A stretch of DNA of 64,000 nucleotides, from NCBI GenBank assembly GCA_026874595.1, contig CM049317.1:20966882-21030881 (forward strand). Direction: 5' to 3'. A model generated the notes under the pieces. The model had not been told where the DNA came from. It saw only the letters and a list, made by a program, of their open reading frames with translations, and ran no database searches. Of this stretch, positions 2,961 to 60,054 are shown one piece after another. The DNA is from Sipunculus nudus. Lineage: Eukaryota > Annelida > Sipuncula > Golfingiida > Sipunculidae. Position 1 is the stretch's first letter. Each line of letters begins with the position of its first letter. The position numbers were made by a program, and so were the translations under genes.

Positions 2961-3334
2961 AATCTATTACACGTACACACGGCCACGTACATCCAAACAA
3001 TCAATCGTGTACACATTGTAGGATAGACACGTGTTATTACCTAAGTGTAATTACAAAAAAATACATGTAGAATACGAGATATAATTTGAAAAAAAAAATA
3101 AATATACTAAGATGGACATCAACATGTATCAAGGGAATTGTGATTTATATACGTAGAGAGATGTTTGAATGGCTCTCTATATTATATTTGATGCACCCAT
3201 AAAAGTCAATCAGTTTATCACTGCTGCATGCAAAGTCGCTGTGTCGATACATGTAGTATGTATTATACCAGTCACAGTAGAGACGTCACTTCGCTGGTTC
3301 CTACGAAAGTGTGCTGATACACATAGGAAGTTGG

Positions 3335-8337: not shown

Positions 8338-9090
8338 TTAATGTATATACACAAAGTTAATGAAATGCGTTAGATGATCAAGGATAATAATGCAGCCATC
8401 ACTTGCCAGTGAACTCACTTTTTCCGACGTGTCCTTTTGTTTATTCTTTACATCTGTATCATCTCGGGCAGCTCCCGGCGTTCCCTCTTCAGCTTTTCTT
8501 TTCGTCTCCGTGTGGTCACCTGGGGATTCCGAGAGATCCTCACTCATTCTCGTTCCATTTTCACTTGCGTGTGATTCCTTTTTCTCTTGGTCTAGTTCTT
8601 TTGGCTCGGATATTTGATCTGTACTGTCTACTGTTGTCTCATGGTGTGCCGTTTCATCAGTTTCTTTTGAGTCTGAAGAAGGACTCTGATTGTCTGCTTT
8701 GGGTTCCTGATTTGCTTCAAGAACTGTGTCTTTGGATATCTTTGAGTTGTGTTCATTTACTCTGGGTTCTTCTGTCTCGTTTGTTGCAGCTAATTTTGTT
8801 GAGGAAAATTCCTTGACAGAACGATTGGTAAATTCTTCTGTCTTGTTCTTGTCACGGCCGGCACCATCAGAAGCAAGATGTTTGTTTTCCAAATTACTTA
8901 AACCAGCGGGCGTTAAGTTAGGTTTGTGAAGAACTTTACCCTTTTCACTGAGCTCCATTTGTCTCCTGCTTTCTGGGGGAACAGATTCTTCCATTTCATC
9001 ATTTATCATCCCTTGGGAGACTGCACTTTGCTGAAATCTTGCAACGACAGTTGTGTGTGCTACCGTATTTTCTGAGTCCACAGTATCTTT
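8338..9090 (-). CDS. Gene A exon 13: charged, disordered C-terminal tail
   Basis: Opens after the acceptor CGGCAG and reads 250 codons to TAA at 8338. It is rich in Glu, Lys, Asp, Thr, Ser and Asn and has no predicted globular domain. It holds one copy of the tail repeat that gene C has three times (landmarks NLENKH, then EANQE, TDQI, ESHASENGT). The end runs EEGTPGAARDDTDVKNKQKD, then a hydrophobic finish (GCIIILDHLTHFINFVYIH). A GTGAGT after SEK could be an alternative donor. Confidence 0.75.
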   Translation of the reverse strand, partial: KDTVDSENTVAHTTVVARFQQSAVSQGMINDEMEESVPPESRRQMELSEKGKVLHKPNLTPAGLSNLENKHLASDGAGRDKNKTEEFTNRSVKEFSSTKLAATNETEEPRVNEHNSKISKDTVLEANQEPKADNQSPSSDSKETDETAHHETTVDSTDQISEPKELDQEKKESHASENGTRMSEDLSESPGDHTETKRKAEEGTPGAARDDTDVKNKQKDTSEKVSSLASDGCIIILDHLTHFINFVYIH

Positions 9091-12000
9091 CTGCCGAAGA
9101 AAAAAACATTTTTATCATATATTTTATGATAATTCATCACATTTAAATGTCATAGCTGTAATTGCGGACCGTTCCAACAGATCTAATTGGTAAACCCTTT
9201 TAATCTAATGCTTATGCTAGACTGGATGTGTGTACAATTTTTTTCAGGTTGTCACATAATTATGATTTGTGATATTTACCTCAGATGTGCTGTCGTGTTT
9301 TTCTGTATTTGATCCACTACAGGAAAAGCTGCCTTGTCTCTGTAAAATTAGGTACAAGTCATACACCAAGACATGATGTTTTTTTCAAATAGAGAGAACC
9401 ACAAGTAAGAAAAAGAAGCTACAAGAAAAACTAGTATGTCTCTGCAAAAATAAAACGTCATATTGCGAAAGCATTTAAAAACCTTTTAATCTGATGCTTA
9501 TGCTAGGCTCGATGTGAGCAAATTTTTTCAGGTTGTCATATAATTATGATCTATGATATTTACCTGAGCTGTACTGACACGATATTCTTTATTTGATCCA
9601 CTCCAAGAAATGCTACCATGTCTCTGTTAAAATAAGTCCGAAGATATAATCCTATTTCTATGTACAACAGATTAAATTTCAGACAGTACCATCAAACTCT
9701 TCAACATATTTCAAATTAAATTTACTTTGAACATATCAATCAAGTCACTTAGATGTCGGCGCTTTATAATGTTAGTATAAATACGTTAATTGATTTTTAC
9801 TCACTGAGCCAGCTCTTGATTGGTTGAATCCTAAACTATGTTTCACTCGAAATTTCTGTACCTCGTTCACCTTTTAAATGGTCATAACATTATATGAAGC
9901 AAACGTAAAATTAATACAATTTTGATAAAGTAATTACCAACTCCATTGATCTTCCAAATATATAACATAAAAATTGGTAACTATACATTGATGTGAATAA
10001 TAAAATTAATAAATATTTAATACGCACCTCAAGCAGCGGTTATACACTGCAGGTTTTTCTTTTAAACATTGCTTTATGTGACAATTTTCTCTGGGTTACA
10101 CCATCAGGGTGGACAAAGAGCAACAAACTTGAAATAGACCAATGAGAGTTTGGTGTTGCAATGTGCAGCCAGTTTCAAAATTAAACATGTGGCACCCGCT
10201 CTAATTTGTCTGATTCTTGGCTATGTGCCAGAACCGGTCAAACAGATAAACGAGATTTGGGACGACTGCACTGTATAGCCGCTGCATGAGGAGCGTAATT
10301 ATTTTATGGAACAGTTCATTTTTTAATTATCCACAAAAAGGTTGCGACGGGAAAAGATGGAATGAAGATAAACATGGAGACCGCTCTTATTTTATTAGGG
10401 CACATAATAACTGAAGAAAGATATACCTTGTTACATTGTACAACATCTGTATACTCCACGGACATGCGGATAACTTCACTTTTCTTCCACGAAAACTTGA
10501 TATAGATTCGAAATGGTCTTACAGTTTTCTTTTTCGTTCTCTCAATGATGAACTGTGCGATTGGTAGACCAAAATACGCTCCTCCGTGAGAGAACAGCTG
10601 ATCAAGTCCAACTTCCTTGAGAAAGGCAACATTAAGATTCAGTAGATGACATGATTATGTAAAAGTCTATGTCGTCTTTGAAACAAGAGTTATAAGATTA
10701 CATGTAAGTGGAATCATACCTTGATGTTAGATCCTTTAATTTGCATTTCACTGTCGTCCAACGTTAGTTCCGTCACAAGGGTGCACTCGTTCTGGTCATC
10801 AGGTTCTTCTGGCATATTGACATGGAGATCTTTCCTTAACATTACCCCAGGCTTGTCCTTCATGGCCTCCTGATAAACAATTAAATAGTCATTAAGACTT
10901 TTATGGACTATACTATTTCCCCAATAAGTGAGGAGAGTGTTACTTGAATCAAGGAGAAGCATTTAATAAGACACGTCTATTATATGATCGAATCATACAC
11001 GGAAATGCTGTCATTCAGCCAGCCCTCTGCATTTTGAGGCTAGAAATATTTGAAAAAATTGTTATCTACAGGTTACAAACAAGAAACGTTTTGTTGCAAC
11101 ATATTTACTTTTTTAAATTGCCTGTTGATAGTTTGAACCGGAGATCTTCAATTCGGAAACACACGACTTACATTCTAGACAAAGAGTCTCCAATCTGTTC
11201 ATAATTCAAAAGTTACGGAAGGAAGTACGAGTTGAAGAATTACCTCAATTTGTGTTGACGCAACGGAGTTGCCTTGTCGCTGAAATGCAAAGATTTCAAG
11301 TGTAATTTCTTCATGTACTGAACGTCCAGATGCTAGTTTGTGTTGCCGGGCAACCAATACACACGTGAACCAGTGTGATTCTTCGCCATTTTTATTGTTC
11401 AGCATCAGCGGTGTCGCATCAACCGCATCGTCTCTAGCGACATCTGGTGACGCCTGGTTCCAATTTGTGGCCAAAGAAAGATAAGGATTGGTCATCTTCC
11501 GTTTTCTCTGGGTCAAATCAGTGAAAAATGAATGATCTAACTTTTTCTAACCAATTGCCGTTAGATTTAAGGAATTAATCATATGCAACATAGTAGAAGC
11601 TACGTGAAAAAAAAAATAAGTAAATTGCCGGGATTTGGGAGTGAATGTCCAAGAATACTTTTGAAACGATCCAAGCAGATTTATTCAGTTAAACTAAAGC
11701 GAAATGCCGCAAACTAATTTTGTCTAATCCTGTAATAAGTTACATCCTTACATGGATGAATGTTTATACATTGGCTCTTACGATAGGCATACACCAATTT
11801 CTTGTCTCAATAAGGGATTTTGGGCCACCTTTTGCAAGTTCTTATAAGGTGTCAAGATAAAATAAGCCACAGAGTCCGTTATTATTTTATTTAAATCATC
11901 CCTTCGAATATTCCGATATCACCTTAATGATATAAGGTAAGTTTGAGGAGAGATGGGAATTTTACGAATTTTAGGACAATCATCAAACGCTGCAGGCATA

Positions 12001-15000
12001 GTATAGATAAATGAAATAGCACAGCACTGCATCTTTTTATTTCACGGTTCTTTAAACCTGTCTCAGCGGAGACATATATCGAACTATAGTTATGATAAAT
12101 AAGTCTTACCTGTCTGAATCCTTTAAATAAACAGATCCCTGCTACCACCAGTATTAGGACAGCCACACAGACGATTACAACAATAATAATAGTAAGTGCG
12201 TTCGTAGTAGCAGTAGGAGATGGTACCGTTTCGGCTGTAATATATTCATTATATTTTATATGAGTCACGTGAAAGCTTATTCCCTGTCGTCAGTTGGATA
12301 CATCGCACCTGTAAATATTTGAATACGTTACACACTATGCATCAATAGACGTTAAATATGTCTGTAACTTACATATTAGCGGTTCACAGTATTGCATGAA
12401 GACGCGGAAACCAAATTAGAAATACCCTTTCGGCAAGACTGCCCCACGCAGGCGTTTCTGTTGCCATATTCGCTATAAAGGCATTCCGACTAGGTCAAGC
12501 ATTCTATCAAGGATGAAACCGTGAGGTCGTTTGGTCTACTTCTAAAGTTTTACCGAGAACAGGCCTTTCTTCTGGCCCCATTACTGTACAATGTTACATC
12601 ATGGTATAACAAGGAAGAGTGCAACATATTATACGCACGTGTGGGAATTGTTATTGTTACGTTGATATATCTGCTCTGTGGTGTAACAGCCACTAGCTTA
12701 TCTACAAATATACCAGAAAGAAATACAAAAATAAAATGCGACAATAACAAGAAAAACTCCCGTATAATTTGATATTTCAGTAAGCTCAGACACTTTTTGA
12801 GGTAAACATTTCGTTTATCTATTTTTTTTCTAATTTTATAATGCTTTTGAAATCTTCCTTTTTCACCAAAAGAGAGCCAGTGGATTAGATTTCCCTTTTA
12901 GATATTTTTTTTCAGTTATTTACAGAATACACTCAAGGAACACATAGACACATACAGACAAGAAACATGCATCGGTTTAGTGGATCAGGTTTCTGAACTA
13001 AATCCGGGATGAAGCATAAAAGGCACAGAAGATGAAGATATTCTGCTGAGTCCTCTTACGTTTAGCTATTTCTTAACCCTCCATCAGACACATATATCAT
13101 AAATATGATAAGTAATATATATCTTGCATATATTGCTGCAATGCTTTATATTGTAAATAATATCACAGCTGCTCTGAATACTTCATATATAATGCTACGG
13201 AAATACGTACGGAAATTAGTCCACACCGATTAATTAACAATTACATATGAACATATTTTAATGCAAAATTTTTTAAATCAAAACTGAAACGTCACCGTTT
13301 TTTCGAAAACATAATGCTGCCTTCTTGAGATTGCAGTCAGCCGTTCTCCAGGATGCACCTGAAGCGCCCTGTGTTGTGATAATGGAACAGTTGCCGGTGT
13401 GGCGTGGTTGTCCTGGGGCCCAGCGCGGTAACACCGATGCTGTGAAATTTAGAATTAAAAAAATTAATAATGATATATTAAACCAAATAAAAAAAAGTTA
13501 TACACTTTTTACAAACATGCCTGCACGAGCTGCCAGGTATATGTCCTTACCCGTGTGTGCAAGTAGCTTAAGATATTATTTTCATTTTTTTTATAGATAT
13601 TAGCTTGGTACGCAATATCTGTTGATAATACATCTTGCTCTACATTCCTTTATTTTCACATGGAAGATTAAAAAATGGTCCCAGCCGAAACAATAACGGA
13701 GTATTCCTGGAATTTACCACAGTTAATTTCGCCGGGGTTTCGTGCGAGCCTTGTTTAAGCCGCTCCTCAGATATCTGGCCTTTTGCATGAATATTCCCTC
13801 AGAGTTCCTGAAATCGGAGTTCTTGTCCAGTACTATAAAGAATATAGGTCACTTGGGTTTCAAAGATATTTTCCTTTCAGAGCCTATAAGATTGTTAAAT
13901 TAGAAGTTTCTAGGTCCAAGTGTTACGGTTTGTGCCTGCTAACGGACAAGGGGTGATAGCATTAGCTAATATGACTCCAAGTCAGCTGAGCTAATGACTT
14001 GTACTGACTTGGAAGCAATCTCCCTTCCTGCAACCAGTCGTCTTTCCTGAGTCCGACCCACAACTGAGTACAGTGTTTCTTGTCCTGGTCATGCCATTTA
14101 CTGCTGACGAGCTTCCGGTCCTCGTCTGATGACATCATCGCAAGGTCCATACCCAACTTCCGGCACTTGTGACGTGCGTCGTACCAGCTTGCAGCGTAAC
14201 ACCCGTACATGAACACACGGTCTTGTACTGTCAGACAGTCAACAGGGTTCACTGGGTATGATGCACAGGTCATGTTACCTGGTAAAGATATAGGTACATG
14301 AGGCACACGAAATATAATTCAGTTAAACATAAATCACCGATGTTGACAATCAAAATTTATCAAAGCATTTTTATATATTTTTTTGTGGAGGTAACCGTAT
14401 CCATTTTTTAATGTTAACTTAACTACGTGTATGTACATCATCAGAATTCCATTCTGGTTTCGTACAACGTGACAGGGTAGTATCACATGCTGCCTCTTAT
14501 TTCATATCTAGGGGTTAACCAGGTCCGGTGACTACTGCACCTGCGGGCCCTGCTTGCCTTAACTTCCCCATTGCTGAGATTCGAACTCACGATCTCCCGG
14601 CTTTGGGTCATGTTCTTTACCCCTGAGCCGCACAAGCCAGTTTATCAAAGAAATTCACATGACGAGTTCTTATTATATTTACGTAGAAAAGATTTGACTT
14701 ATCATCGTACGTACTAAACTTGGCCACTGGGTTAATCCTTATCAGAATGAGTATATTTCATGTTTCTGATTTAATTGTTCTTTTAAAACACCTTTTCCAT
14801 GAGCATGGGCACAGCGCATGATGATTATATGTTGTATTCGGGTAAAATAAATCATCGTCGCTTGTTTCTATAAGTAACATGGAATACAAGGGATTTCTGA
14901 AGGAACCTCGCCGTTTTATCACTTCAACTTGATACATGACTCAACATATCCATTCTCTGTCGATGGACAAGACTTTAACACTCACTGCCAATCGCCACAA

Positions 15001-17350
15001 ACCGGCGTTGCTAATTTGATCGATTACGTTCTGATTATACTTTCGACAGAACTGAAACCTCTTACGAATGTTTATGTTGACTTCAGCTGATTCAGTATTA
15101 ATGCTTTAATTAATTAAGTTATGACTAAAAATGTGGTTCGTAAGTATGTATGTTATCGGAATGTTACTTTTGGCATAAATGTTTCACTGAATTATACGTA
15201 TGACTTACCTTGACAAATGTAACCGTAACGATCCACGGTACAGTTGTCAACCTCCATGACCCTGTCTCTCATGTGGTAGTTACCGCAGATCATGAAGGGC
15301 TTCCAGTTCTGACGGGAGAACTCATCCCCTGGTAAAGGAAAAATAACGTCATGAACAAAGGACTACCGATAGCAAATCGAATATTCAAATCGAACGTCAA
15401 ACGTATGTACCAATATTCTCCATCAGGCATTGCAAAGTTCTGATTTCAGGTAAGACTTATCCTCAAAAAAAGTTGTTCGTGTTTTCCATTGTTCTCTTAT
15501 AGTGTTGATGGTATATTACATTATTAGTAGGATCCTCAATACCGTATTATTGTCGCCAGCTTCTTGCTAGATGCGTATCGTTGTGTCTGTTCGTCTGTCC
15601 GTCTTTTTGTCCATCGATTTTCTCAGACATGCCTGAAGGCAAGTTATTCAAAATTTTGACTACGCATCAGAAAAAAAAGCCTATTGTTTTCTATGCGCTA
15701 TAGCCCATTAAAAAATGTGCATCTAGATAAGTATGAATTGTCATTAAGTGCGATATCTCAAATACTATAAAAATTACTATTGTTAAGACTTCAAAGAAAT
15801 TGGATTCATTGCTTTTCTGTCTTAAGACAAGCGGCCTTATTCTGTCGTAACCATTGGTACGCATTTCGTGGTAAAACTTGTGAAATTCTAAATTTAGAGC
15901 CTGTTTTCTATCTCGGTCGCCTTTTCTGGTAAACACAGCTAGCTATGTGCATGGGGTACCATTTGACACGTTTTCATTGACAGAGTCGTAAATTTTGTGA
16001 AATCCCGTCACGTTTGGCGACACACGAGATTCAGTGAGATTTAGCAAAAACGGTTGCAACTCAGTAACTGTGTTTTATGCTAGAGAAGTCTGTTTTTTGC
16101 TCTGCGTTGGATAACACTTGACAAGCTTTCAGTGAAAACAATGCAAATCTCGTCAAAACGTGAAACATGAAAATGCTTATAACTCGGTCACTTGTCATGC
16201 TAGAGAGGCTTGTCTATGCACTGTGTCTCTTTTGATCGCTCCATCGAATCTCTTCAAATTTTGTTTAGTTTGCAAAGAAATAGGATACTATGGTATCGTT
16301 TACGGCTTTCTCTTGGAGAGGGCTGGTGACTATGCCATGTTACATCCTGTTGGAAATGTGCTACAGTATGCCCACTCGTAAACATAAATGGGATACAATG
16401 ATATATGTGGTAATTTTTATATTTAAATGAACAAAAAATGATTAAGCAAAATATTTGCAATACTGTTTTTGATCTGTAACATTTTTATCAATAGTGATAT
16501 CAAGATTTCTTTCATTGTTGAAAATCGGTTTTAAATGTGTTTATACAGAGTACAAGGAACCCTTACCAATTTGTCCTCCATCAAGCCACGTCCACGTAAG
16601 GAATCTCTCCCTTCTCAGAGACAGCCAGGCCTCAGCGGCTCCGAATGACGTCAAAGCTTGCTCCAAAGCCGGCAGATCAGATTGGTCCTCGATCACCGGA
16701 ACCCTGTAGCCTGGACCCAACTCAGGGCATTTTGATTCCGCCTCTGTCCACGTGACTGAACCATTAAGTACCTTGACTCTGTTATCTACAAAAGTCAACA
16801 CCAAGCCAAAAATCTTCTTACAGTGGCAACCATACATATTTAGTAGATTGACAAAAGGTTTGATGTATGCAAACAGATCCTATGATCGTTATCAATAGTA
16901 AATCAGGGAATATAAATATATAAAGAGACCAATCAGGGTGGATACAGGGGTATCAGGGGGTTAAACATCAACCTCACAGAGAGGAATTACTAAGACTGAC
17001 TGACTAACCTGACTGACTGAATGAATGAAGGAATTAATGAGTGACATTCATTTCTTCCAAAGGTTAAAGGTTGCAATATACAGCGTAAATAACACATTTA
17101 AAAATTATATACACAGTAATACCTTGCCTCGTGTCCACCTCAGTTTAGCGACCACTTCAAATAACGACCACTTTTTCACGGTCTCGATTTTTTTTATAAT
17201 ACAGGTAAGATTTACCCTTAAACAGGTTTCACATACGACGTAGAGAAAGATTTGTTTTGCTCTTGATATCAGACCACGCTTAGACGTTCATATAAAATGT
17301 GACCACTTTATCCAGGCCCGTAACGGTTGGCGGTCGTAATTTCCAGGTTT

Positions 17351-17405
<55 letters not shown>

Positions 17406-18032
17406 GTGTGTGTACTTGAAACAGTTAAAATGAGTTACATTTACATATAAATACATTGCACTCAAACATATGACTATAAACAATACACTTACTGTTCACG
17501 TATAGGTGGGACTTGTATACATTCATTATATTGTTATCCCCTCTAGGTCAACTTAACATAGGTATAATAAATACATGACAAACTGCATGTTTCGTTTCAA
17601 TGAATGAATGAGTAACTTAAATGTATTCCAAAGGACCAAGATTGCAATATACAGTATAACTATATATAGAGAGAGGGTGTTGTGGCTGACATGTAACAGT
17701 TCAGCTTATGTAAGTTACATATGCATATAAATAAATTGCACTTTAACATGAAGTACAAGCTTGATATCACTATAAACAATAATCGTACCTTTCACGTACA
17801 TGTGGGACTTCGGCACCTGTGTACCTTCAATATATTGTTATCTCCTCGTGGTGAACTGTCTATGTTAATAGACACAATAACTACATGACACGCTGCATGC
17901 TTCATTTCCATGTAAATAAAGATAACTCTACTGACAATGAAATCATACCAACTTACCTCCATTCGCCACTTTAAGACAGAAGAAAAGTTGTAAGAACATA
18001 CACAAGAAGCTCATGGTGGCGGATGTAAACAT
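8338..18032 (-). CDS. Gene A: type I membrane receptor with two C-type lectin-like domains and a long cytosolic tail
   Basis: Thirteen coding exons on the minus strand: 17957-18032, 16567-16785, 15209-15328, 14009-14278, 13296-13439, 12110-12234, 11244-11507, 10720-10869, 10427-10615, 9805-9870, 9564-9623, 9280-9339, 8338-9090. All junctions are GT-AG and the phases join into one frame of 831 codons. Order of parts: signal peptide (about 1-25), CTLD1 (26-138), CTLD2 (139-276), Thr/Pro stalk, transmembrane helix (about 290-313), juxtamembrane KGFRQ, then about 520 cytosolic residues. These comprise an unassigned module (exons 7-9), small phase-0 exons and a charged tail. Exon lengths 1, 3, 4, 5, 8, 9, 10 and 11 match gene C exactly, which supports the model. 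CTLD membrane proteins usually act in recognition or adhesion; the ligand and signalling here are unknown. First Met at 18032; a second Met six codons later is possible. Confidence 0.82.
9280..9623 (-). CDS. Gene A exons 11-12: tandemly duplicated 60-nt exons
   Basis: Exon 11 (9564-9623, RHGSISWSGSNKEYRVSTAQ) and exon 12 (9280-9339, RQGSFSCSGSNTEKHDSTSE) are both 20 codons, phase 0, with near-identical flanking intron sequence (CTTATGCTAG followed by a TTTTTCAGGTTGTCA tract). Gene C has a single counterpart at 48974-49033. Because each is symmetric, either can be skipped without a frameshift. Confidence 0.75.
9805..11507 (-). CDS. Gene A exons 7-10: conserved cytosolic module of unknown family
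   Basis: Exon 7 (11244-11507, 88 codons), exon 8 (10720-10869, 50), exon 9 (10427-10615, 63) and exon 10 (9805-9870, 22) are all phase 0. The predicted chain is mixed alpha/beta with beta-strand-like stretches (EEITLEIFAF, ECTLVTELTL, RPFRIYIKFSWKK). Residues shared by A, B and C include LRKDLH, KGSN, an A-x-[FY]-I-I stretch and FSWKK. I do not recognise the family. The module begins right after the membrane with NPYLSL, which contains a YxxL-type sorting motif. Exon 10 (VNEVQK..AGS) may be a linker. Confidence 0.75.
12110..12234 (-). CDS. Gene A exon 6: stalk and transmembrane helix
   Basis: Encodes AETVPSPTATTN, a short Pro/Thr stalk likely to be O-glycosylated, then about 24 hydrophobic residues (TIIIVVIVCVAVLILVVAGI) and the basic stop-transfer end FKGFRQ. 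It enters in phase 1 and leaves in phase 0, so every later exon is phase 0. Confidence 0.88.
13296..14278 (-). CDS. Gene A exons 4-5: CTLD2
   Basis: Exon 4 (14009-14278) encodes a long-form CTLD start (NMTCASYPVNPVDC, giving the N-terminal hairpin cysteines), WYDARHKCRKLGMDLA and the WIGL-like LWVGLRK. Exon 5 (13296-13439) encodes RWAPGQPRHTGNCSII and SWRTADCNLKKAALC. The W.PGQP frame is that of a QPD-type loop, but the calcium-ligand Asp is Arg (QPR), and WND is replaced by WRT. The fold should be intact, with canonical calcium coordination lost. Exon 4 uses the donor AAGTCAGT. Confidence 0.85.
13730..13992 (+). repeat. Family R fragment in gene A intron 4, ending beside the exon 4 donor
   Basis: A truncated R copy with landmarks TTCTAGGTCCAAG, CTAACGGACAAGGGGTGATAG and the terminus AAGTCAGCTGAGCTAA. 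Its end is only about 15 bases from the exon 4 splice donor at 14007-14008. Gene C carries the same insertion at the same site (54080-54308), so it predates the split of A and C. Confidence 0.65.
14405..14642 (-). repeat. tRNA-derived SINE in gene A intron 3
   Basis: On the minus strand a tRNA-like head (about 14566-14640) has a D-arm-like GCGGCTCAGGGGTAAAGA and a B box GAGTTCGAATC. It is followed by a body (GGTGCAGTAGTCAC, then GTCACG and GGAATTCT) shared with 33815-34192. A head plus family-specific body is the classic SINE layout. Confidence 0.6.
15209..16785 (-). CDS. Gene A exons 2-3: CTLD1
   Basis: Exon 2 (16567-16785) encodes the first half: TWTEAESKC helix 1 with the first conserved Cys, VPVIEDQSDLPAL, the WIGL-like AWLSLRR and WTWLDG. 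Exon 3 (15209-15328) encodes QNWKPFMICG, then DNCTVDRYGYIC with the remaining three cysteines of a short-form CTLD. The EPN/QPD and WND calcium motifs of sugar-binding CTLDs are absent, so calcium-dependent sugar binding by this domain is unlikely. Sequons NGS and NCT suggest N-glycosylation. Confidence 0.85.
17020..17950. repeat. Internal duplication in gene A intron 1
   Basis: The block with landmarks GAATGAATGA, TTGCAATATACAG, ATAAATA(C/A)ATTGCACT and GTGGGACTT occurs at about 17020-17590 and again at 17595-17912. Genes B and C each have one copy (about 40920-41150 and 60340-60560). A TA microsatellite (17353-17402) separates parts of the first copy. Confidence 0.6.
17353..17402. repeat. 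TA microsatellite, gene A intron 1
   Basis: About 25 perfect TA units. Confidence 0.9.
17957..18032 (-). CDS. Gene A exon 1: signal peptide
   Basis: Encodes MFTSATMSFLCMFLQLFFCL and a short KVANG end, then the donor GTAAGT. The hydrophobic core flanked by small residues is a standard secretory signal. The exon is 76 nt with the same phase as in B and C. Cleavage is probably near VANG, just before the first CTLD. Confidence 0.85.
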
Positions 18033-25451: not shown

Positions 25452-25625
25452 CTTTGATTGACATAAATACAGGAACAAGAATAAATTGTAAAACTAAGAA
25501 AATTACATAAACTTACGGCATCTGTTAAAACTATTTTTTCCTAGATATTAAATTTCAGTTTAGGAGTACATGTAATAATCTTCACCACTAACAATGAACA
25601 TGTTTTCTCGGCTTCGGAAAATTCC

Positions 25626-25713: not shown

Positions 25714-28483
25714 ATTTCCCATTTTGCAAAAATGTAATAATAAATGATTTTTATAAAAACATGTATTATAAAAAAACTGTATGTATAATAAAATACCTTA
25801 TATATATATACCTATATCCCATTTTGCAAAAATGTAATAATAAATGATTTTTATAAAAACATGTATTATAAAAAACTGTATGTATAATAAAATACCTTCT
25901 TGGATTGACTTAGAATGTCTGATTTCTTGCCTTTATCCCTTATTTTATCTATCATTCTCGAAAAGAAAACTTTCGGTCCACTTTCATCTTCTACAATGGT
26001 CTGACGCTGCTTGATATTCTTTTCGCCGGCGGAACCGGAATTAGGAGAAGAGGATTCAGATGGTCCAGGCTTATTGTCTCTTATGATATCAGGATCATCC
26101 ACTTTATGTTGCGCCGTAATCCTTCTTCTGTTGGACATTTTGGCGTCGCTGTCTTTGTGTGGTGTGCGGATCTCCTCATATATCTCTCCCAAATGTAATG
26201 GTAGTGGTGTTTGATAAAACCCCGCCTAGAAGGAAAGAAAATATATTTTCCTTTATTTAAACAATGTGCTGTTTTTACATTGTGTTTGATGAGAATCTCC
26301 TTTTTTTTTTAATTAAATATTATCATATCATTTCCGGTCATCTTGGTAACCCGTGCTCTTATGAACCTGTTTCTTTTGTGAATATAAGGTTTAAGAGTAT
26401 TTTTTTTAATTTCTGGTCAGTGTGAACTGTAACAAGAAAAAAAATAATGAAATGACTGTCATTTTCTTGTAAAACACAGTTAAGCATTCTAAACCCTTAT
26501 TCAAAATTGATTAATAAATAATGTATTTTAATTTTTACAGCATGTTTTATCTCATTTCATTGTTATAGTATGTAATGCCATTGTGCAACTCTATTTTATA
26601 TTTAAAGATGTAAGTGCATTAGATGCTGGGTCAAGAATAAGCATTTGTTATACAAGTGCTTAATAATAATAAAATGCTCTACCAGTCAGATTTGCAGATT
26701 ACATGTATCAAACGCCAGGTGTGTTATCCTGGAACAACCAACACAATGGATTCTACTTTTCGGCACTGGTCCTTCCCAGAGAGACCTTCCCTGCCAATCG
26801 CACACACTGCCATCTCCAGTCTTCAGGTGACATGACCACTCACGGAACGTGTCTTTCTAATATATTTTCTAAAGCTGATGCTTGGACGTCCGATTTGAGG
26901 ACATTTTATTGGATCATACTTAGAAATGTTGATCATTGTTTATGTCATTTTCCAGTTACTGATATAAATTATTTATTATATGACTGTTTCATATTAAAAG
27001 TAGACCAAGATTCTTGATTTCAGTGAGATTACACATTCTTTTGCATTCATCTTCATCCAAGACCATAAAGCTTGCACTCTATCGACGCATACACATTTTT
27101 TTCTCTTTTTCTTTATTCACAATATTTTGGGTTTTTTTATAATAATAAAATATAAAATTAAACATACCGGTGCTCTTGCTGAAGAACCATATACCACCCC
27201 TGGTGTGCCTGGATCGGCAATTCTGGCTTTTTGATGTTTTTTTACCTATAATAAAATAATATAATTGAAAGTTGACTTTAGGGTTATATAGAAAGTTGAG
27301 GAGGAAATCATTACTTAGTGGTGACTTGTAAATCGATTGCGGAATATACACTTTCACCTATACACCTTCAGTATATGCTAGGATTGGTCGAGTTAGGGGG
27401 CTAATAAGGTCGAAGACTTGCGGTTACATGTACTAAGCTTTGTTAAAGCGAACGGTTCAGTTACAAATCTTGTATTAATAATATTTTTTTTTGTCTGTAT
27501 ATTTACACATCTTTAATTCGAAAAAAAAATAATTCTGATGAAATGTGACAAAACAAATTAAAAAAAAAACGAATGTTTGTGTATTTTTATCTGATTAACG
27601 ACTGTGATATCTTTACCAATTTCATCCTATAGTTAGACAGACGTGAATCAACATAAAATTTCATGTACAGTTTTTTTTTTCAGATGCCTCAATATTGCGT
27701 GATCGTGCTTCACTCTCCTACTTGTTATCATAAATGTACAATTTATCTAATCATGCTAATCTTTTACGAGAAAAATATCGGGTATCATTGACAATTTAAA
27801 GTATAAGAAAAATGTTTATGGTCTAATTGTTGCATATAGATATAAGGTATGTAAGGCGTACAAAACATTAACCAAAGATCCCACTGGAAAGAAATCTGGA
27901 CAGCTTACAGATAGCCTTTGTATAGGTGGTTAAAATAAAATCTTTACAAGTGAAAAGCATTAAGTAGACTAAACCTTAAGCGGTTTCACACTATTTCCCT
28001 AATATTTTGTATAAAGTGGTATGTACCACCAAATATTCCTAACAATATATATTATGTATGGCTAAATTTGCAATCAAGTGTCATAGAAGACCAACGAATG
28101 TCAAACGTTTTATGTCCAATTTTATATGGTTAATTTACCTGTGTGATTGAAATAACCTGGTTATACTTCATGGGCATCAATATTTCTTTATCTTTTTTCC
28201 AGGAGAATTGAATTTGCACCCGGAAGTCCTGGATTTTCTTTCCTCTTCTGTGGTAGATTATGTACTCCGCCACTTGAAACCCGGATGGTCTTTTCATACC
28301 TGCTTGTAGCTGAACTAGACTTATTTCCTATAAAATGTAAATGTCAACGCTGGAGGGATCCTTCTGTCATTTAAATATGACAAAGACAAGATATCTGAAT
28401 TTTGATAAGTTTAAATGGAAAAAAGAATTCATTTAAATCGTGTATGATAAAAACACTTAATCCTAATGTTTCAGGATTTTACA

Positions 28484-28551: not shown

Positions 28552-31500
28552 ATCCTTTTTTTAATAATCATCTTAACCTTATTGTTTACATCAGTTAACA
28601 TAATTGTTTATCATACACTTTTTTGTGACACACACATGCAATCTGCAAAAAACTTATACAGATGAATAAGTAAACTCTATAAATGATTAAGTGAATGTTA
28701 TCGGAATATGTTTTAATGACGAAGTACGTTTTCATTATACAAAATTTATTTACTACATAATCGATGCCCATCAAAAAATAGGAATCGAGCTTTTAGCGGT
28801 ATTTTAAGCAAAAGTGGTTTAATAGAAAATCAACTGAAAATGTAAATATAGCTAACGATATTACGCCTTAAAAGCCTTAGAATCATGCGTTGTTTGCAAA
28901 TGTTTATATTTTATCTGTGACCAGTACTGACTACTGCTATAATTTACGATTGGCTGCAGTTTTTGTTCCTTTTCCTCGAATAAATTTCAAGGATTTCATC
29001 AGTTTTTCCATGAAACAGATTTTTGGAATTATTCATTATCCCAGTTTTTTTTTAAAATGTTATATTTGTCATTTCACACACGGTTCCTTTTTTTCACAAT
29101 GTAAAGGAATGTGCTAGGGGATTTTCCGGTGTTAGCCCTGCTTAGACATGTGAACGTGGATGAGGCGAAACATGGGAGATACGTTCATGTACCTTATAGT
29201 TTGATCCTTTGACGTACAGGTTGTGATATTCCACGATAATTCTTTTTGTCAATGTCAGGTCTTGTTCGTCACCTACACCTGGCTGCACGAGGTGCAGGTC
29301 CTTTCTAAGAAGTATCCCTTGTCCGGCGCTGGTTAATTCCTATTACAAAACAAATATGTACAGATGGTCAACTGTTAGTAACACATTAAAGGCACTAGAG
29401 GGTTTAAGCTGATAAGAGCTAACTTATTATATATTCAGATAAACGATAGACCTCAGACTTTTCTCGGGAGAGGGGTCTTGGATGACATCATTACAGTCGA
29501 GACACTGTTGATATTAGATTTATCAAGTGATGTATAATATATCTTTTTACGTGAAAAAGGCAGACAGACAGAAGATCTATATAATATACATTAGGGCAAA
29601 ATATTCGTTTATTTCACGTTAAGCTTGTATGTTTCTACAGATCTAGAAGTGTATATTTATATTTTACAAAAGAGTGTTTTATTAGTTATGCCGTGGAAAA
29701 TTGTTTCATTTAAACAATAAGATAAATAATCACCTCCGCATTAAAATAGACATCAGACAATTGGCACGATTTCAGGGCGAGGATTCGTAATGTAACATCT
29801 TCTTCAGAACTGCGCTTGGTCTCAAGCCTATTGTGCTCGGCTATTAAAGTGACGTGACTCCACCCGCCTCTAACGTGACCTGTGTCGTGAGCTGGTTTAG
29901 ATGATGGTAATACCAACGACTTCGACGATTCGTCTTCCCGAAACCTTCCGTCCCCGGGTGTCCAATTTAAAAGGAACTTTTCTTAGTTTCTTTTCTGTAA
30001 CAAATAAACAAAACGCATTTTAATCTATTAACATTTCAGTGTTACATGAGTGTTAAAGAATATTTGCAATTCTTTAAAAAAAATGGCTATTTTTAAATTG
30101 TGCTTCCTCCATAGTGGGATTTTCGTTGAACGGTGAATATTAAAGATAAAACTGTTCAGTACTTGACAGAGTATGAATAGCACTGAGATCAAGATTCAAA
30201 AAGTATGCCAATAGTGGTTTGATTTACAAATATGCAACTAAATTTAAATGAAGAAACACAAATGCTATCACTAACACTTAACACCATTTAACACCGCGTA
30301 TTCTGGGATCCCGCTGTAAGTCAATTAATACCAAGCCGTGTGTATGATTATATATACTTACAGAAATATAAGGTTAAGATCTACTTTTAATGTGTAGTTA
30401 GAAGCTTTGTTTTAAAAAAATTTGGTCAATGTTACACACTTCGGGATGCTGTGCGAGTTCGGCATACAGCATCCCCGTGAAATGGTAACCAGCATAGGAT
30501 AAAAGAGGATTGTTATATCCACACAGTTCAGCATTGGCGTCAATTTTTCCTCAAGGCTTGATGGATGACTCGCAAGGATGGCGGGGGGGGGGTGATCTAA
30601 CGTTCTATAACCCTATGATTATTAAAATATAACATAATTTTTCAGTTACATATTTAATATATATTTTCATCTCGTCTACCGAAAATTTGTTTTTCCGAAA
30701 TTCAAATTGAGAAAATGAGCCACCATAATTCACTTCATTATTCCGAAAAATAGAAATAATGTATTTTGAAAATATATTTTCTTAAATTACCGAGAGGGAT
30801 TCTATTTTGACTCGCTGAATGGCGTTCACTCGCCCGTGAAAAATAACAAATGGCCAGATCAGCGCGTCTTATTAACCTTATTGAGAGGGTTTGTTGCCAA
30901 ATTGTTACGGTGTATGCATTCATACGATCACCTGTGCATGTACTGTCGTAACGCTTTCCCCCTTTTTTATTCTTTCTATGATTTTTTTTTGTGCTTTCTC
31001 GTTTGCAAACTTAGTCGTGAGTCGTCACTTAGAACGTAAAAGTTTCCTGTATTGGGATTGGCTGTGAAAGACGAACCGTAATTTGATAAAGATTACTTGA
31101 AATCCACTTTGATGGTTCAGTGATTTATATCAACGACATACACTTGAGGTATTTATATAGCCTTCGATCTTTACCTGCGATATTTAATGTAGCTCCTTAT
31201 TGCAATCACATGACACTAGTGCATCACAAAAACCAAAATTTAAAATCATTAATATTTTTACTGACAGCACCATTTAGTTCACAATTCATTTGATAAATAT
31301 CCTTCCCTTGCAAGTTTTATACACAAAGAGAAAGTTGCTAATTACCTTTTTAAATTTAGATTACAATAATTGTAAATGGTTCTCTGTTTTTATATAACAA
31401 ATAGGAGTAAGCCAAAATGTTCTGGAGAGAAAACGTTACTGACAAGATCACGGTTAGCATACTGAAACCTTGATACATTTACGGCTGTAGTTTATTATAC

Positions 31501-31627: not shown

Positions 31628-34600
31628 CGTCTGTGTGGCCCATGATAAATATGTAAGAAGAGGGATGATTACACTGATCATCTCCCTTGCTAAAATGTCG
31701 GGAAATATATCCCATACCCCCTGTATTGACGCCCTGCTACGAAGTTTCCAAAACAACCAGACGCACATACATATTATCATGATAGAGGAAACAGTCAAAG
31801 TAGATATCATGCATATACATGTGAGAAGTAACAAAAAATACCGACCTTTTTGCACCATTAGTCAGTGATCTGGCCAGGGAAACAAACTGGCTAAGCCCCG
31901 ATATCACAATTTAGAAATTATAAGTTGTGATTGCAGAACGTGCCTGAAGACATAAATCACTGAGCGACCCATGGCAATATGTCCTGCCTGACAACCATCA
32001 GCCCAATGCAGATCCTATTTTATTCAATTGCACTATCATTGCATTTCACTTGTTGGTGACATTTCTGCTGCTTGTCAGTAACAAGTTATTCTATTTAGCC
32101 TGAGGCCAGTATAATGATGGAATATATTTATGTATTTCTAAAATCACCATTGATATCAAAACTGAATTATCAGATGTGACCAAATTATCACCTGAAAAAC
32201 TAATCAAGGTCAATATTGAAACCAGGTTTCATGACAATAGCTATAACTAGGGCTAAAAAAAGTATACAATTGCTTTCATTTGTCTCAAACTTTAAGGTTA
32301 AATGCGTAAACAAAAAATACAGGTAGCACCACTACTCTTCAGTAAATAATGAAATCATTTATGATCAGTGTAGTAACAGCAGATTTCTGGGCCCCAGGTG
32401 AAACGGCTGAGCAAATGATACCACCGCTGTAACTTAGAAGTCTAAAAAATAAAAAGTGACCCATGGGTCATGATGCACAGATGACTAGTATGACATTTTT
32501 GGCATGCATTACAATAGGAATTGTATCATCTGAAAGCCAAATTGAGATTATTTAAGATGTGATATTGACCCTTGAACTTCTGGCAAAAGATGCGACAGGG
32601 TTCTTCCTTAATTATGGGTCGCACATATTTGAAGATGGATGGTTTCCAGAACTGTTCTCATGAGTTTTGCCACATATATCCTGTGTATTATGCAGACACC
32701 AAATAAAAATAGAATTCAAATACAGATGGCATCACCAGAAACTGGAAAACCTAGTCATGATCAATAAGGTCAAGGTTTCAGGACATAATGTGAAGCCACA
32801 GCTGAGAAACTGACACGATCGCTGTCGTTTGATGGTATCAAAAATGTCGTAACAATTGGAAAAAATACAGATAGCGCCACCACGCATGCATTAATTATCG
32901 AGATACTAGATTTTTTATCATATGTTTTAATATTCTGGGGTGCACAAGCAAGTCCCGTTACACGTAAGACAAAGGTCGCAGTGACCTAGTGTCAGGTAAC
33001 CTGAGAGCTGAGAAACTAACACGATTGTCATCATTTGACCGTATAAAGCACGAAAAAGAATAAGGTACACTTGTGACGGCACTAGACTTCAGCAAATTGA
33101 TCAAAATAGTCATGATCAGTAAAACTTCGAGTTTTCAGGATACTTTTTAAAAAAAACTGCGAAATATGACACAATTGCTGTCGTTCCAAGATCCTAAATT
33201 AGAGGTTAAAATGAGCAAAAATTAAAAAAAAAATGCATAGGTAGATCCACTACTTTTTTTGGAAACAGATGAATATGGCTATGAGCTATGGCAATCCCAA
33301 TATTGAATATTGAGAAACAGGAACAGTTGTAATTTGTATCAAATTTTAAAAACAAATGATTTTTTTTTCTTATTACTTGTCTCATAATTAAGAGTATATC
33401 ACGAAGTTCAGATTTCAAAGAAATTTATCAAGACCTCCCTGGATTTAAGCTAAAATTGTCTAGGATTTCAGGACCTGAAAGGATGACCGCTACAGATGAC
33501 TACAGTTAGCTCGGCTTGAATGTATTATAACGAACATTTAAATGTTATTGCATATACTGATGAACTAGTACTGCATACCAGTAAAAGTATGATTATATTT
33601 TTCTCTTTAAATGACAGCATGATCATGTCCTTTAAACATGCCTTTGAGTGACACAGTTGGGTTACAGACAGCATCGACCACGTAAACCAGACAATTTAAT
33701 GTTCAGCATATGTTATATAAAAAAAAAATAATGTAAATCGGATGCTTCCATATAATATATGGGTTTTTTTTTTATTTTGGCGGTAGGGGTGGAATTAACC
33801 TCCTCCATTCAATTGCTAGATTAACTCTACGTGTATGTATGTCTAGAGAATTCCATTCCGGTTCCGGACTGCGTGACAGGGAAATATCACAAGCTTCCTC
33901 TGATTTTATATCCTGGTGTTAACCATACCGAGTGACTACTGCACCTGTGGGCCCTGGGTGTGTAATCATCTCCATTGCTGGGTCATATCACCGAGGAACC
34001 CCTGAAAGGTGTACTCGTTTGTGAGTGAAACCTGGCCATTTGGCCCGACCTTTCCATTAAGCCTGCAGAGCGCTCAGCCTGTGTAAGGCCCGACCGGAAA
34101 AAAATCCCACCGCCTTGCCTAAGATTCGTACTCAAGGTCACACTGCTTTGAGTCGTAAGCTCTTCCCCTGAACCAAAGAAGCCCATTAAATATGGATCGT
34201 TATATACAACGTTTAAGATGCATATTATTAGTGGTTTCATTTCATAATATGTTTTGCCAAAAATTAACACATTTATCGATGAAGCTTATGTACCGTTCTG
34301 AAGAGACCATGTTTATCACCCAAACATATCTACAACACCCAAACCAACAAGCACAAGTCCTTTGCTGAAATTGGTCTAAATGACAAAAAAAAATGGTTGC
34401 AGTGATAAAAAATTACCACTAATTTAGGTAGGATTGTTATCATTTGCATTGTGAAAGCTGAAGGAAGTAGATAAGTACATAAAGAAAGAAATCCTATCCA
34501 ATCTGAGCCAAGTAAACAGTGATCTATTACATTTATATGGTTACCTTTTTTCTGTTCCGTTTCTTAAAACACCTAAGAAGAATTATGACTATTCCAAACA

Positions 34601-35825
34601 TCAACAGGATTCCAGCGACCAACGAGATCACCACAACTATCCAGGTATGCGGCGGGTTAAATGGGGTAACTCTTGGTTTGAAGATACCTGTGTTAAAAGC
34701 AGGAAAAACAATGAATACCTAGTCTGCATTAGCAATGCAATAATCAATAAATACTATCAAGCATATTTCTTTTAAAAGTTTTTTTAGCACTTTTAATGCA
34801 TAAGCACAGAACATGCAGGATAAACAAATGACGCCTGGTTGTAATTTAGTTTTTAATATATCTATATAAAGGTATACATATATATAAATTACAGAGTTTG
34901 AATATCATAAATTGTTGAAAGACATGCATTGACACACGAAGAAAAGCGATGGCATCCATTTGACCTTTTTGTCCGCCCTTTTTTTGTGCGTAACCTCTAA
35001 ATTAGCAATCCGGCAATACCTATTGTCTTAAATGTAAATAATGGAATTACAATTCAATATTCTCATCAAATCAACATTAAATGAATCTGAATCTGCAAAC
35101 TGGTCATAGTGATTAACTTTTGAATTAGGAGCTCGTATGTTCAAGTAATAACGTTGGCATGTCGGTCATGGTCAGTAGGTTATATTGAATCCCCGAATCA
35201 GGTATTTACTGGTAGGTCCTATTAGGAATGTAACGTATTTTCCTTTACAAGGAGACACTAACGTGTGCTTATACATAAAGGAGTTATTTTAAAGGCATGT
35301 GTCAACCATCCTACGATTGAAACACAATGCATGTAGTGAAAATTTCACTAACTGTCAGAGGGTTAAAATAAATGACCTCTTGGTGACGTTTTGAAAAAGA
35401 ATTTATGAAATCGCAAGTACTTAAATAAATTTCTCATTTTATTTCCATCACTTTACATGGATTCTTGGTCCGAATTATATTGTAGCATGGTGTTTCCGCA
35501 GAAATATTTCCCACTTTGAATGTTCTAACAAAGGGAAGCAGTTTTCAAAGAGTAATAAAAATGCCTTCTATAATACAGCCCCTTTGAATCAGCCGCAGGT
35601 GTCCAAAATAAATTTGGAAAAACTGAATTAATATAACGACAAATTTTATAAACTTACTAGGTCTCAACGTTGTATCGTTTGTTGAAACACAAATCACCGG
35701 ACGATTGTCGGTGCAGTTTGAAGAATACCAAAGCACGCCCTGTCGACCCCTGTCTACCATGAACACGCACTGTAAACGCTCGTTCGGGTGTCCTGGCGCC
35801 CAACGTGGGGCTACGGAATCTTGAT

Positions 35826-48820: not shown

Positions 48821-51800
48821 CTGAGAAAAAAGTTAAATTTCAAATGTCATAGCCGACCTCGATTTGAAATTAGGAGACCTGTATGGTAAACTCTTTAATC
48901 TGATGTGTATGTGAGACTCGAAGTGTAAAAAATTATTTCGGGGTGTCATATAAAAATGATTTGTGATATTTACCAAAGCTGTACTGTCATGATGTTCTTT
49001 ATTCGATACACTCCAGGTAAAGCTGCCACGTCTCTGTAAAAAAAGCAAATACCAGATCCACAGAATAGTAAGTACGCAGAAAAACACCAAGAAATAACGT
49101 TAAGTCAAATAGAAAAACATGGTGTATGCAGAAGAAAAACTACAAGAAAATACTGCTATGCCTCGACAAACATGAATGTAAAACAGAAAATCCTCCATGA
49201 AATAATTCTCTATGTAAAAGATTAAATTTTAGAAGCTGACATACGAATAAAAAAAAGTACCCAGAAAATACCATGAAACTCAAAATATATCAAATCAAAT
49301 TTACCTCGAACATTTCAATCAACTAATTAGGATGTCAGCGTCTTATTATGTAAATATTGATTTGTTCATTGACTTTACTCACCGAGCCAGCTCTGGATTG
49401 GCTGAATCCTACACTTTGTTTAAGAAGATGTTTCTGTGCTTCATTAAGCTTTTAAAAGAGTCATAATATAATATGAAGCAAACATGTGATATGAATTAAA
49501 TTTTGATCAGTAATTTACGACTACACTTTCTTCCAAATATATGACATAAAAATTGGTAAGAAATACGTGTATATTAGTTTACAATAATTATTTTATACGC
49601 TCTTCACGCAGCGGTTATAAGCTGGAGTCGCATCGTTCTGGATAACACCACCAGGGTGAACACAGCAAAAAAAAAAAGTAATCAGAACTATGAGAGCGTA
49701 TTATCGCAATGTGCATCGTTTCAAATTTTAAAATCAGTCACTCTTATTGATCAGATTCTTGTCCTTGTAAGAGAAACGGTGTAACAAATCAACGAATTGT
49801 TGGGCGAATGTGTAACCGCTGCATGAGGAGAGTAATTATTTTAAGGAACATTTCATTTTTAATTCTCCACCAGAGAAGTGGCGACGGGCAAAGATAGAAT
49901 GAAGAGCAACATGGAGACCACTGATATATAATAAAGTCATAGAATTACTAAATGAAGATGTACCTTGTTACATTGCACAATCTCTGTATATTCTGCGTGC
50001 ATGCGAGCATCTCCACCTTTCTTCCACGAGAACTTGATATAGACTCGAAATGGTCGCACGTTTTTCTTTTTTGTTCCTTCAATTATGAATTGTGCAACAG
50101 GATGTCCAACATACGCCCCTCCGTGAGACAACAGCTGATCCAGTCCAACTTCCTTGAATAAGGAAACAATATAATTCAGTGAATGACATGATCCTGTAAT
50201 AGTCTATGTCGTCTTTGAAACAAGTATTATATGATTTCATATATTTTAAGTGGAATCATACCTTGATCTTAGATCCTTTAATTTGCATTTCATTATGTCG
50301 TCTCTGAAACAAGTATTATATGATATCATATATTTTAAGTGGAATCATACCTTGATCTTAGCTCCTTTAATTTGCATTTCACTGTCGTCCAACGTTAGTT
50401 CGGTCACAAGGGTGCACTTGTTCTGGTCATCAGGGTCTTCTGGCATATTGACATGGAGATCTTTCCTTAACATCACCCCAGGCCTATCCTTCATGGCCCC
50501 CTTCATGAACAAACACATGGTCGTTATACAACGTTAATTGTGCATATATTATAATATCTTTATTTTGAAGCCCTTCAACACTCTTATGGACTGGTTCGTA
50601 AATTCGTATTTCCCCAATAAGTCAGGGGAGTGTTAGAAAAATTATCCTTACCTGCAGGTAACAAATTAGATTTTACCAAATATTTACTATTTTCATTACC
50701 GTGCTTGGTGGTAATTCGAACGGGGTATCATCAATTCGGAAACACAAAGATTACATTCTACACAAAAAAGAATCCAATCTGTTCATAATTCAAAAGTGTC
50801 TGTAGGAAGTGTGAGTTCAAGAATTACCTCCATATGTGTTAATGAAACATAACAGCCTTGTCGCTGAAATGCAACTATTTCAAGTGTAATTTCCTCATGT
50901 ACTGAACGTCCAGATGCAAGTTTATCTTGTCGGGCAATCAATCCACATGTAAACCCATGGCAATGTGATTTCTCGCCACTTTGATTGTTCAGCATCAGCG
51001 GTGTCAGAAGTCCATCAACCCCATTGTCCCCAGCGCCATCTGGTGACGCCTGGTTCCAATGTGTGGCCAAAGAAAGATAAGGGTTGGTCATCTTCCGATT
51101 TCTCTGTGTCAAATCAAATTATATTTTTTTTTAAATCGGTGAAATAAGCTAATTCAACGTTCATGACATACAGAAGCTACTGAAAAAAAATCAAATTGTC
51201 TGGGTTTAGGATAGAGCAATATAAAGAATACTTTGGTAACATCCTACAGATAAATAATTTAAACTAAAGCAATAAGCTGCCGAATTGTGTTGTGTATTCC
51301 TGTTTAAAGTTACATCCTAACACGACTTATGGTGATACATTGTATTTTTCGAATGGGATACACTCTTTTCCTGTCTCAATTATATAGGTGGAGCCACTTT
51401 TTACAGTGATTTAAAAAGTATCGGAATTAATTAAGCCAAAGAGTCAGTCATTATTATATTTTAATCACATAGTCTTAGTTCCATATCACGATGAAATAAG
51501 GAAAATTTAAACAGAGTTGAGGACTTTGAGGACAACCATCAAATAAGACATAAAGATGAATATAATAGCGCCGTTCTGGTATCCTTAATCGTTTGGTTTC
51601 AGGGTTCTTAACATAAGTCTCAACGTGGACATACAACTGCACTTATGATAAATTAATCTTACCTGACTGAATCTCATAAATAAACAGATGCCAACCAGTG
51701 TTAAGACTGCCACGCAGGTAATAACAACAATGATAATAGCAGATGAGTTCGTAGTAGCAGTAGGGGATGGTACCGTGTCGGCTGCAATGTGTTCAGTTTA

Positions 51801-57800: not shown

Positions 57801-59110
57801 GGAAGAGGTACTAATATTGCCTGGTCTAGCTTATGATATCATAACTTTTTGTTCCAAGCGTGGTTGTCCTGTCTATACATGTTTATTAAACACTGAGGAT
57901 GCGTTTTTTTCTGTACCACATGCTGTTCTGTTTAAATAAGCTGTAAATGTTGTACCTGCTTGGTACTGATTGTGAACTAGTATAAGTCAGTTATAGTTCA
58001 AATTAAATGGGGTTCACAGTTGAGTAAGGCAACATTAACCTCCCCATATCTTTTTAAATTATTTAATCAAGATTTGATCCACGAATTGTCGAATAGTACA
58101 GGTGCCATAAAAATTTATAATGTATCTTATAACGTGATTTGTTATGCTGAGAATCTCACGTTAGCAAGTTTGACTGCCTCTGGGTTACAAAAGTTGACTG
58201 GTGTAGCTGATACGTATATTACACAGCATGGCCTTAGGTTGAATCCACTTAAAACCGCATGTGTCGTGTTTTGGCAGTGCACACCAGAACCTCACCGTAA
58301 ATGGCTACTTGATGGTATTAAGCTTAATGAATGTAACAGTGTGAAATAACTTGGTGTTACTTTGTCAAATTCTAATCTTACGGAGCATATTAAGGGCTGC
58401 ATAAATGCATACAGGAGGGCATTTTATTCTCTACAAGGACCTGGTTTGTCAAACATTGTAACTGATGTTGATTCTTTATCTTATGTGTGGAAAACAGCTA
58501 TTAGGCCTGTGTTGATATATGGCGCCAGTGCCATATTTGTCAGTTAACAATGTCTAGAATCAAATGGAAAAGTTACAGTCACAATTCCTAATGGCTGGTA
58601 TTGGTTTACACAAATATTGCAAAAAACTCTCCCGTTCTGAAAGCTTTGAATGTAAATAGGATACAAACAACAGTTGAGTTGAAAGGTCTAGATTTAAACT
58701 TGTGCTATCTGTATTAATAATTCCCGAGGAAGGTCTATTTATACATATTCACTGAATATGCCTGTTTGCGGCATGCTGACTGGCCATACCGATCTCAATG
58801 CAAGACCAACAATAGCGTGTTCGAAATATGCTGTTTTCTCAAATATATTTTAGATAAAGAGTACTCGCAAAGGACAAAAAAAGGAATCAAAACATGATGT
58901 CAATGATGGAATATGTGACACTGTTCGGCAGTTATTGGTCAGTCACGAAACTTATGATAAATATGTATTGGATATGCTACTGACACCATTTTAATATATT
59001 GATTTTATGTAAAATATTGTTTTATCTGTGGTGTTTTGTTGTTCTTATTATTTATGTTTTATCCTGTTCATATAAATGTACTCTTTTCGTGAAGGCTTAA
59101 TTAACTATTG

Positions 59111-59155
<45 letters not shown>

Positions 59156-60054
59156 TGACCAGTTTTCTTGGACAAAGTTGTAATTTTTTTGTTAAATCTT
59201 GTTATGTTTGACGTCAGAGGAGACTCAATGACATTTGGCAAAACGGTTACAACGCAGTCTATGTTTACAGGCCTACTAAACAAGTCTAGTTTTCTGGTCT
59301 TGGTTGGACAACATTTGTTTTCAGTGAAGAAAACTGCAAATCTCGTGAAAACTTTGCACCATTTGATAATAAGCGAGTTTACAGGAAAATGTTTATAACT
59401 CTGTCACTTTTCATGCTAGAGGGGTCTTTTTGCAATATCTAATTTGATCGCTCAAGCTAGTTTCGTCAATTTTCGTCCACTTTATCAAGAAATGACGATA
59501 CTATGGTATCATTTACAGCTATCTGCTGGACAGGACTGGCGACGATTACGGCCTGTTGGAAATGTTTAGCTGTACGTCCGCTAGCAAACGCAGATATGAT
59601 ACAATGACATTGCTAGTAATGTTAATACAAAAATGAACAGAAATTGATTAAGCAAAATATTTGAAATACTGTCGCTCATCTAAACAATTTTTTAACAATA
59701 CTGACATCAAATTTTATTCCTTTGTTGAAAATTAGTTTTATGATGTGCGTATACAGCGTTAAGGTACCTTACCAATTTTTTCTTCATCGAGCCACATCCA
59801 GGTTTGGTATCTCTCCCTCCTCAGACCTAACCAGGCCTCATATACTCGGGATGACGTCATACTCTGCTGCAAAGTCGCCAGATCAGATTCGTCCCGGATT
59901 ACCGGAACACTGGAGCCTGGACCCAACTCAAGGCATTTCGATTCCGCCTCTGTCCACGTGGCTGAATCCGTAAGTATGTGTACCTCAACTCTGTTATCTA
60001 AAATTCAGGAGGTGAGAAATGTGTATAGGCCTATGTTCGTTTTCAACCAATACC

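Follow-up and report, generated by a model that had tools for sequence, protein, structure and literature searches.

The window analyzed here is a 64,000-nucleotide stretch of the Sipunculus nudus genome (1.43 Gb) that corresponds to C12:20966882-21030881, where C12 denotes contig CM049317.1. Coordinates are window positions unless prefixed with C12. The window contains three receptor genes, A, B and C, whose models, together with those of the neighboring genes D-H and a sister gene, Z, were read from the DNA on the basis of open frames, splice borders and homology. The three genes encode C-type lectin-like domains (CTLDs), a transmembrane segment and, in exons 7-9, a conserved module whose identity is addressed in this study. 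All nine module exons exhibit AG/GT borders, phase 0 and lengths divisible by 3 (Table 1). The module is 79% identical between A and C and 30% identical between A and B. An initial annotation had described this exon 7-9 module across three lectin-like receptors, using a range (9805-11507) that also takes in exon 10 of gene A, and the observation is confirmed. The common phase-0 borders, the 50/49/50 codons of exon 8 and the 63 codons of exon 9 hold in A, B and C, and the exon 7-9 stretch behaves as a single conserved block that follows two CTLDs and a transmembrane segment. Among the motifs listed at that time, LRKDLH, A-x-[FY]-I-I and FSWKK recur in all three genes, whereas KGSN is found in A and B and is replaced by KGAK in C. 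The distant gene B retains its motifs at the DNA level, and their presence in its protein is uncertain because an in-frame TAA is the fourth codon after the ancestral exon-7 acceptor (29977-29994), where its relative E is open. The module of B can thus be made only via an AG located 18 bases further in, and B may either produce a receptor that lacks the module or splice at the inner acceptor.

Table 1. Exons and domains of genes A, B and C in the window
Feature	Position	Strand	Remarks
Gene A signal-peptide exon	17958..18032	(-)	60% identical to that of gene C
Gene A CTLD1, two exons	15210..16786 (16565-16786, 15210-15329)	(-)	Homologous to C exons
Gene A CTLD2, two exons	13297..14279 (14010-14279, 13297-13440)	(-)	Homologous to C exons scoring as Pfam Lectin_C
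Gene A exon 6, transmembrane segment	12110..12235	(-)	Hydrophobic run with homology to C
Gene A exon 7, linker and first third of module	11244..11507	(-)	88 codons, phase 0, AG/GT
Gene A exon 8, middle third	10720..10869	(-)	50 codons, phase 0
Gene A exon 9, last third	10427..10615	(-)	63 codons, phase 0
Gene A exon 10, tail start	9805..9870	(-)	22 codons; homologous exons present in C (49383-49448) and D
Gene A last exon, low-complexity tail	8338..9090	(-)	250 codons; no Pfam family at E<=0.1
Gene B transmembrane exon	34545..34688	(-)
Gene B exon 7, inner acceptor assumed	29734..29976	(-)	81 codons; ancestral start 18 bases upstream, with TAA
Gene B exon 8	29193..29339	(-)	49 codons
Gene B exon 9	28139..28327	(-)	63 codons
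Gene C CTLDs	52878..59998 (CTLD1 59771-59998, 55182-55301; CTLD2 54325-54594, 52878-53021)	(-)	Pfam Lectin_C E 3.8e-20, two stretches
Gene C transmembrane exon	51663..51782	(-)
Gene C exon 7	50828..51103	(-)	92 codons
Gene C exon 8	50351..50500	(-)	50 codons
Gene C exon 9	49964..50152	(-)	63 codons

The extracellular halves identify these proteins as C-type lectin-like receptors. For each of C, B and Z, Pfam Lectin_C matches two stretches of the joined ectodomain, and the CTLDs precede transmembrane exons. The module of A, B and C is predicted to reside inside the cell, given the order of signal peptide, CTLDs and transmembrane segment and the basic residues that follow the latter. CTLDs usually coordinate calcium via EPN or QPD together with WND. 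When read by eye, CTLD2 of C (52878-53021) and of A (13297-13440) seems to have replaced these motifs with GQPR and WRTADC, and calcium-dependent sugar binding is therefore doubtful. At the opposite end of the proteins, the tails of A (8338-8540), B (25284-25460) and C (47339-47450) share AEEGT..ARD..DV.N.QKD.SE.VS, in contrast to the low identity of the A and B modules. The tails of A and B continue to GC..ILD.LT.FINF, and that of C ends at VS. A tail exon of B (25866-26225) contains E-I-Y-E-E-I, and YEEI is a preferred ligand of Src-family SH2 domains; the last exon has one tyrosine in A and none in C. The tail-exon scan also gave a sub-threshold MIase match in the last exon of C.

The initial annotation rightly called this receptor design unusual, and the design extends beyond the window. 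In 264 kb joined around the window, eight module genes reside on the minus strand in the order H, G, A, B, C, D, E and F from low to high coordinate, with the borders of G, H, D and E read by eye. Because E and F are 99.4-99.8% identical across ~30 kb, the eight genes contain seven distinct modules; the two copies (C12:21055000-21085307 and C12:21095298-21125725) reflect either a duplication event that is very recent or a duplicate introduced by the assembly. When the genome was queried with the module of B, all 17 matches fell on C12 at 20.896-21.111 Mb. The module of H gave 23 matches, of which 21 belong to the same cluster and two are located at C12 19.29 Mb (E 0.6) and on C4 (E 7.4). The exons of both CTLDs were found in seven of the eight genes. 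In H, only those of CTLD1 were found, and they are separated from its transmembrane exon by a 5 kb run of N. Transmembrane exons were found in A-F, weakly in H (E 0.07) and by eye in G.

The ratio of nonsynonymous to synonymous substitutions (dN/dS) in the module is 0.30 for A-C, 0.42 for A-D, 0.66 for C-D and 0.42 for B-E, indicating that the frames are under constraint, loosely so in C-D. Could the module exons be relics on their way out in part of the cluster? Gene B would end at the TAA after its transmembrane segment, CTLD1 of gene D (C12:21040247-21047285) is damaged by a stop codon in its exon b and a broken frame in its exon a, and the C-D ratio points in the same direction. However, the three module exons have uninterrupted frames in A, C, E, G and H, as well as in D, and the ratios of 0.30-0.42 argue against decay, making this explanation very improbable. 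Decayed pieces do occur in the window, namely a CTLD2-like piece with two stops (2949-3041, E 7e-5) and a short exon-9-like piece (62966-63016, E 0.5). Elsewhere, dozens of intronless CTLD reading frames are dispersed over many contigs (for example, C1:89678751-89682240 and C5:86457428-86460913), sometimes three in a row (~441, 381 and 362-382 aa), and resemble mobile-element cargo.

What is the module? The seven distinct modules matched no Pfam family above the cut-off and no TIR, SH2, kinase or Death domain at E<=10, consistent with the initial annotation, which recognised none of these four. NCBIfam yielded no match for the modules of A, B and C, and sequence and profile searches of the PDB yielded no credible one. 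GTDB genome contigs and IMG/VR gave 25 and 33 pattern matches, respectively, and zero relatives. Several weak hits were attributed to chance: PilN (best E 0.027, on G and H) and COR-B (E 0.1, on G) remained below the cut-off in two members and one member, respectively, and beta-mannosidase (E 1.1), L20 (E 2.1) and argonaute (E 0.22) were weak and confined to one or two members or one chain.

In gene Z, the module is located directly C-terminal to a ZU5 domain, with which it shares one exon. The initial view of the block as a new domain without known kin is therefore probably wrong. The post-transmembrane exon comprises 280 codons in Z versus 81-105 in the window cluster, and the junction between ZU5 and module in Z reads THFTQF. 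Neither a ZU5 search of the genome nor a dedicated check revealed a ZU5 hidden in the cluster genes. A weak likeness of the C-terminal tail of A to the end of the ZU5 of Z (E 1.0) was taken as chance.

The linkage is not confined to Z. ZU5 has 29 matches at E<=0.01 in the genome, 22 of them on C12. When the exons of Z serve as queries, 5 of the 22 C12 places (4 of 21 without Z) show module-like exons on the same strand no more than 10 kb downstream, compared with 0.01 expected from random placement. Receptor-type CTLD exons are found within 10 kb upstream at at least 7 of the 22 places (at least 6 of 21 without Z; 0.07 expected), a lower bound derived from 150 of 770 candidates. The four further module matches beside ZU5 are uneven, with E values of 1.3e-5 (66.75 Mb), 0.002 (66.77 Mb), 0.13 and 0.22 (20.636 Mb) and 0.67 (43.57 Mb). 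At 20.636 Mb, the first match (E 0.13) shares a 259-codon open frame with its ZU5, and the last exons at the four places look alike when read out (K/R-x-[LFM]-Y...[AG]EFV). No module-like exon was detected at 17 of the 22 places, and 15 of the 22 have no CTLD among the matches listed; such places may reflect divergence or other architectures. Taken together, the proximity counts indicate that the module goes together with ZU5 and that the receptor family to which both belong is concentrated on a single contig.

UPA is a domain conserved in UNC5, PIDD and ankyrins. We propose, with a probability of about 0.62, that in this family of single-pass receptors with two CTLDs the module is the domain found behind ZU5, most likely a UPA that has diverged strongly. 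The position C-terminal to ZU5, as observed in Z and four further C12 places, some of them weak, points to UPA, although the window genes lack ZU5. The exon layout is in agreement. The UPA of an UNC5-like gene in the same genome is interrupted by two phase-0 introns, as is the module, and the middle exon has 49 codons versus 49/50 in the module and the last exon 57 versus 63; intron phase and exon length are supporting rather than defining features of UPA. The initial annotation had named a confident match to a known domain as a refutation of its claim; kinship with such a domain is indicated only indirectly, by context and exon layout, and not by a sequence or fold match.

ZU5 itself offers another candidate, given that PIDD and ankyrins carry two ZU5 domains. 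The module might be a second, degenerate ZU5 instead of UPA, in keeping with these tandem arrangements and with the wording 'each of its ZU5 domains' for PIDD in PMC3210808. However, neither the seven distinct modules nor the module of Z alone gave a ZU5 match at E<=10, and the exon layout fits UPA, so we attach hardly any credence to a degenerate ZU5.

A number of results weigh against the UPA assignment. The Pfam UPA profile (PF17217) matches none of the seven distinct modules, nor Z, and finds nothing on C12, and the PDB searches returned no UPA. HHalign and HMMER comparisons of the whole module with UNC5 UPA and an ankyrin UPA were not significant. In exon-wise comparisons with UNC5, all three scores were lower than the means of the shuffles, with 464 of 500 summed shuffles scoring as high, and an off-register pair (module exon 9 and UNC5 exon 8) reached z 3.0. 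The exon 7 signal was marginal overall and weak in the following comparisons (105/1500 for the genome's own UNC5; of 333, 17 for H, 19 for K, 23 for G, 58 each for A and D, 84 for B, 137 for E and 265 for C); exon 8 gave one low value among nine (D, 8/333) and exon 9 none. Moreover, ZU5 in UNC5 occupies two exons of its own, separate from those of UPA, whereas Z has a single ZU5-UPA exon, and the window's own genes have no ZU5. AlphaFold2 gave a mean confidence score (pLDDT) of 29.9 for an intron-containing read-through of gene C. Finally, a Pfam scan that covered the last exon of A, the last exon of C and a single tail exon of B revealed no Death domain, nor did inspection by eye of the 6 kb downstream of Z.

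These results would also suit a lineage-specific, non-UPA domain that became fixed behind ZU5, with the agreement with UPA due to chance or UPA having been replaced. Such a domain would explain why whole-module similarity to UNC5 and ankyrin UPA is not significant, why little emerges per exon and why Pfam and the PDB contain no match. It is at odds with the location of the module in Z, where it directly follows ZU5 within one exon, with the three phase-0 exons and 49/50-codon middle exon shared with UNC5-like UPA and with an UNC5-like strand in exon 7. We regard this alternative as possible, albeit rather unlikely.

If the module is a diverged UPA, the ancestral receptor would have been organized as CTLD-CTLD-TM-ZU5-UPA-like-tail (TM, transmembrane segment), with an UNC5-like cytosolic half devoid of a recognised Death domain. 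The absence of the ZU5 part of the post-transmembrane exon in the cluster would leave these receptors with only a short linker and the UPA-like block, and loss of ZU5 is favored over gain because ZU5-UPA is the common order. In UNC5B, according to PMC8897508, the tail is silenced by ZU5, which binds both UPA and the Death domain, and ligand exposes UPA; a construct with UPA as the sole cytoplasmic domain rescued LRP6 co-precipitation (same source). A UPA-like tail that lacks ZU5 would accordingly be exposed beneath the membrane at all times. CTLD binding or surface clustering could bring the UPA-like blocks together, and the gathered blocks might signal by assembling into oligomers or by recruiting partners, possibly ZU5-bearing sister receptors. 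In NLRP1 and CARD8, UPA self-associates after it has been freed. PMC7794386 describes UPA as promoting filament assembly of both proteins, with a CARD8 concentration almost 100-fold lower with UPA than without it.

The receptors resemble the UNC5 netrin receptors (ZU5-UPA-Death; UNC5B structure 3g5b) in that they are single-pass, that sister gene Z combines a transmembrane segment, ZU5 and module and that UPA in this genome's UNC5-like gene is encoded by three phase-0 exons. In contrast to UNC5, they have a double-CTLD ectodomain, the scanned tail exons revealed no Death domain, the window clade lacks the ZU5 present in Z, and the module is not recognisable as UPA by sequence. Ankyrins are arranged as ZU5-ZU5-UPA-Death and likewise place ZU5 before UPA, whereas an ankyrin-1 UPA did not score significantly against the module. 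PIDD and NLRP1/CARD8 (ZU5-UPA, or FIIND, with self-cleavage after ZU5) also have ZU5 followed by a UPA-like block, but they are cytosolic proteins and not membrane lectin receptors, and no CARD or Death domain was seen here. PIDD self-cleaves at HF/S just after ZU5, as stated in PMC3210808. The junction of Z has HFT at this place, a putative cleavage site with Thr for Ser. An unlikely but more far-reaching version is that the lectin receptors with ZU5-UPA-like tails, as an expanded family on one contig, act like the PIDD/NLRP1 switch, but at the membrane. In that version, ZU5 would self-cleave at HF[ST], and the UPA-like tail would stay bound until the lectin domains engage ligand and then be released or exposed. 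The ZU5-less clade of the window would in that case provide UPA-like blocks that are bound to the membrane yet always free, and these would seed the assembly of the other receptors or gate it.

C-type lectin receptors signal through short motifs or adaptor proteins. Bivalve transmembrane C-type lectins such as CgCLec-HTM share the combination of lectin domain and transmembrane segment, but CgCLec-HTM is described as signalling via a hemITAM (PMC12842671), whereas ~160 conserved residues follow the transmembrane segment here. Other fusions of a UPA-ZU5 module are reported in PMC8195603. A lectin-ZU5-UPA receptor is absent from the available parts of PMC8195603, PMC10140915 and PMC12842671 and, by title and abstract start, from the papers listed in a literature search, a weak negative because supplements and most subscription papers lie outside that scope. 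If the assignment is true, the combination of a lectin ectodomain with a ZU5-UPA-like tail would tie surface recognition to the machinery of UNC5, PIDD and NLRP1, and the ZU5-less clade would be a natural experiment on the function of a UPA-like block alone.
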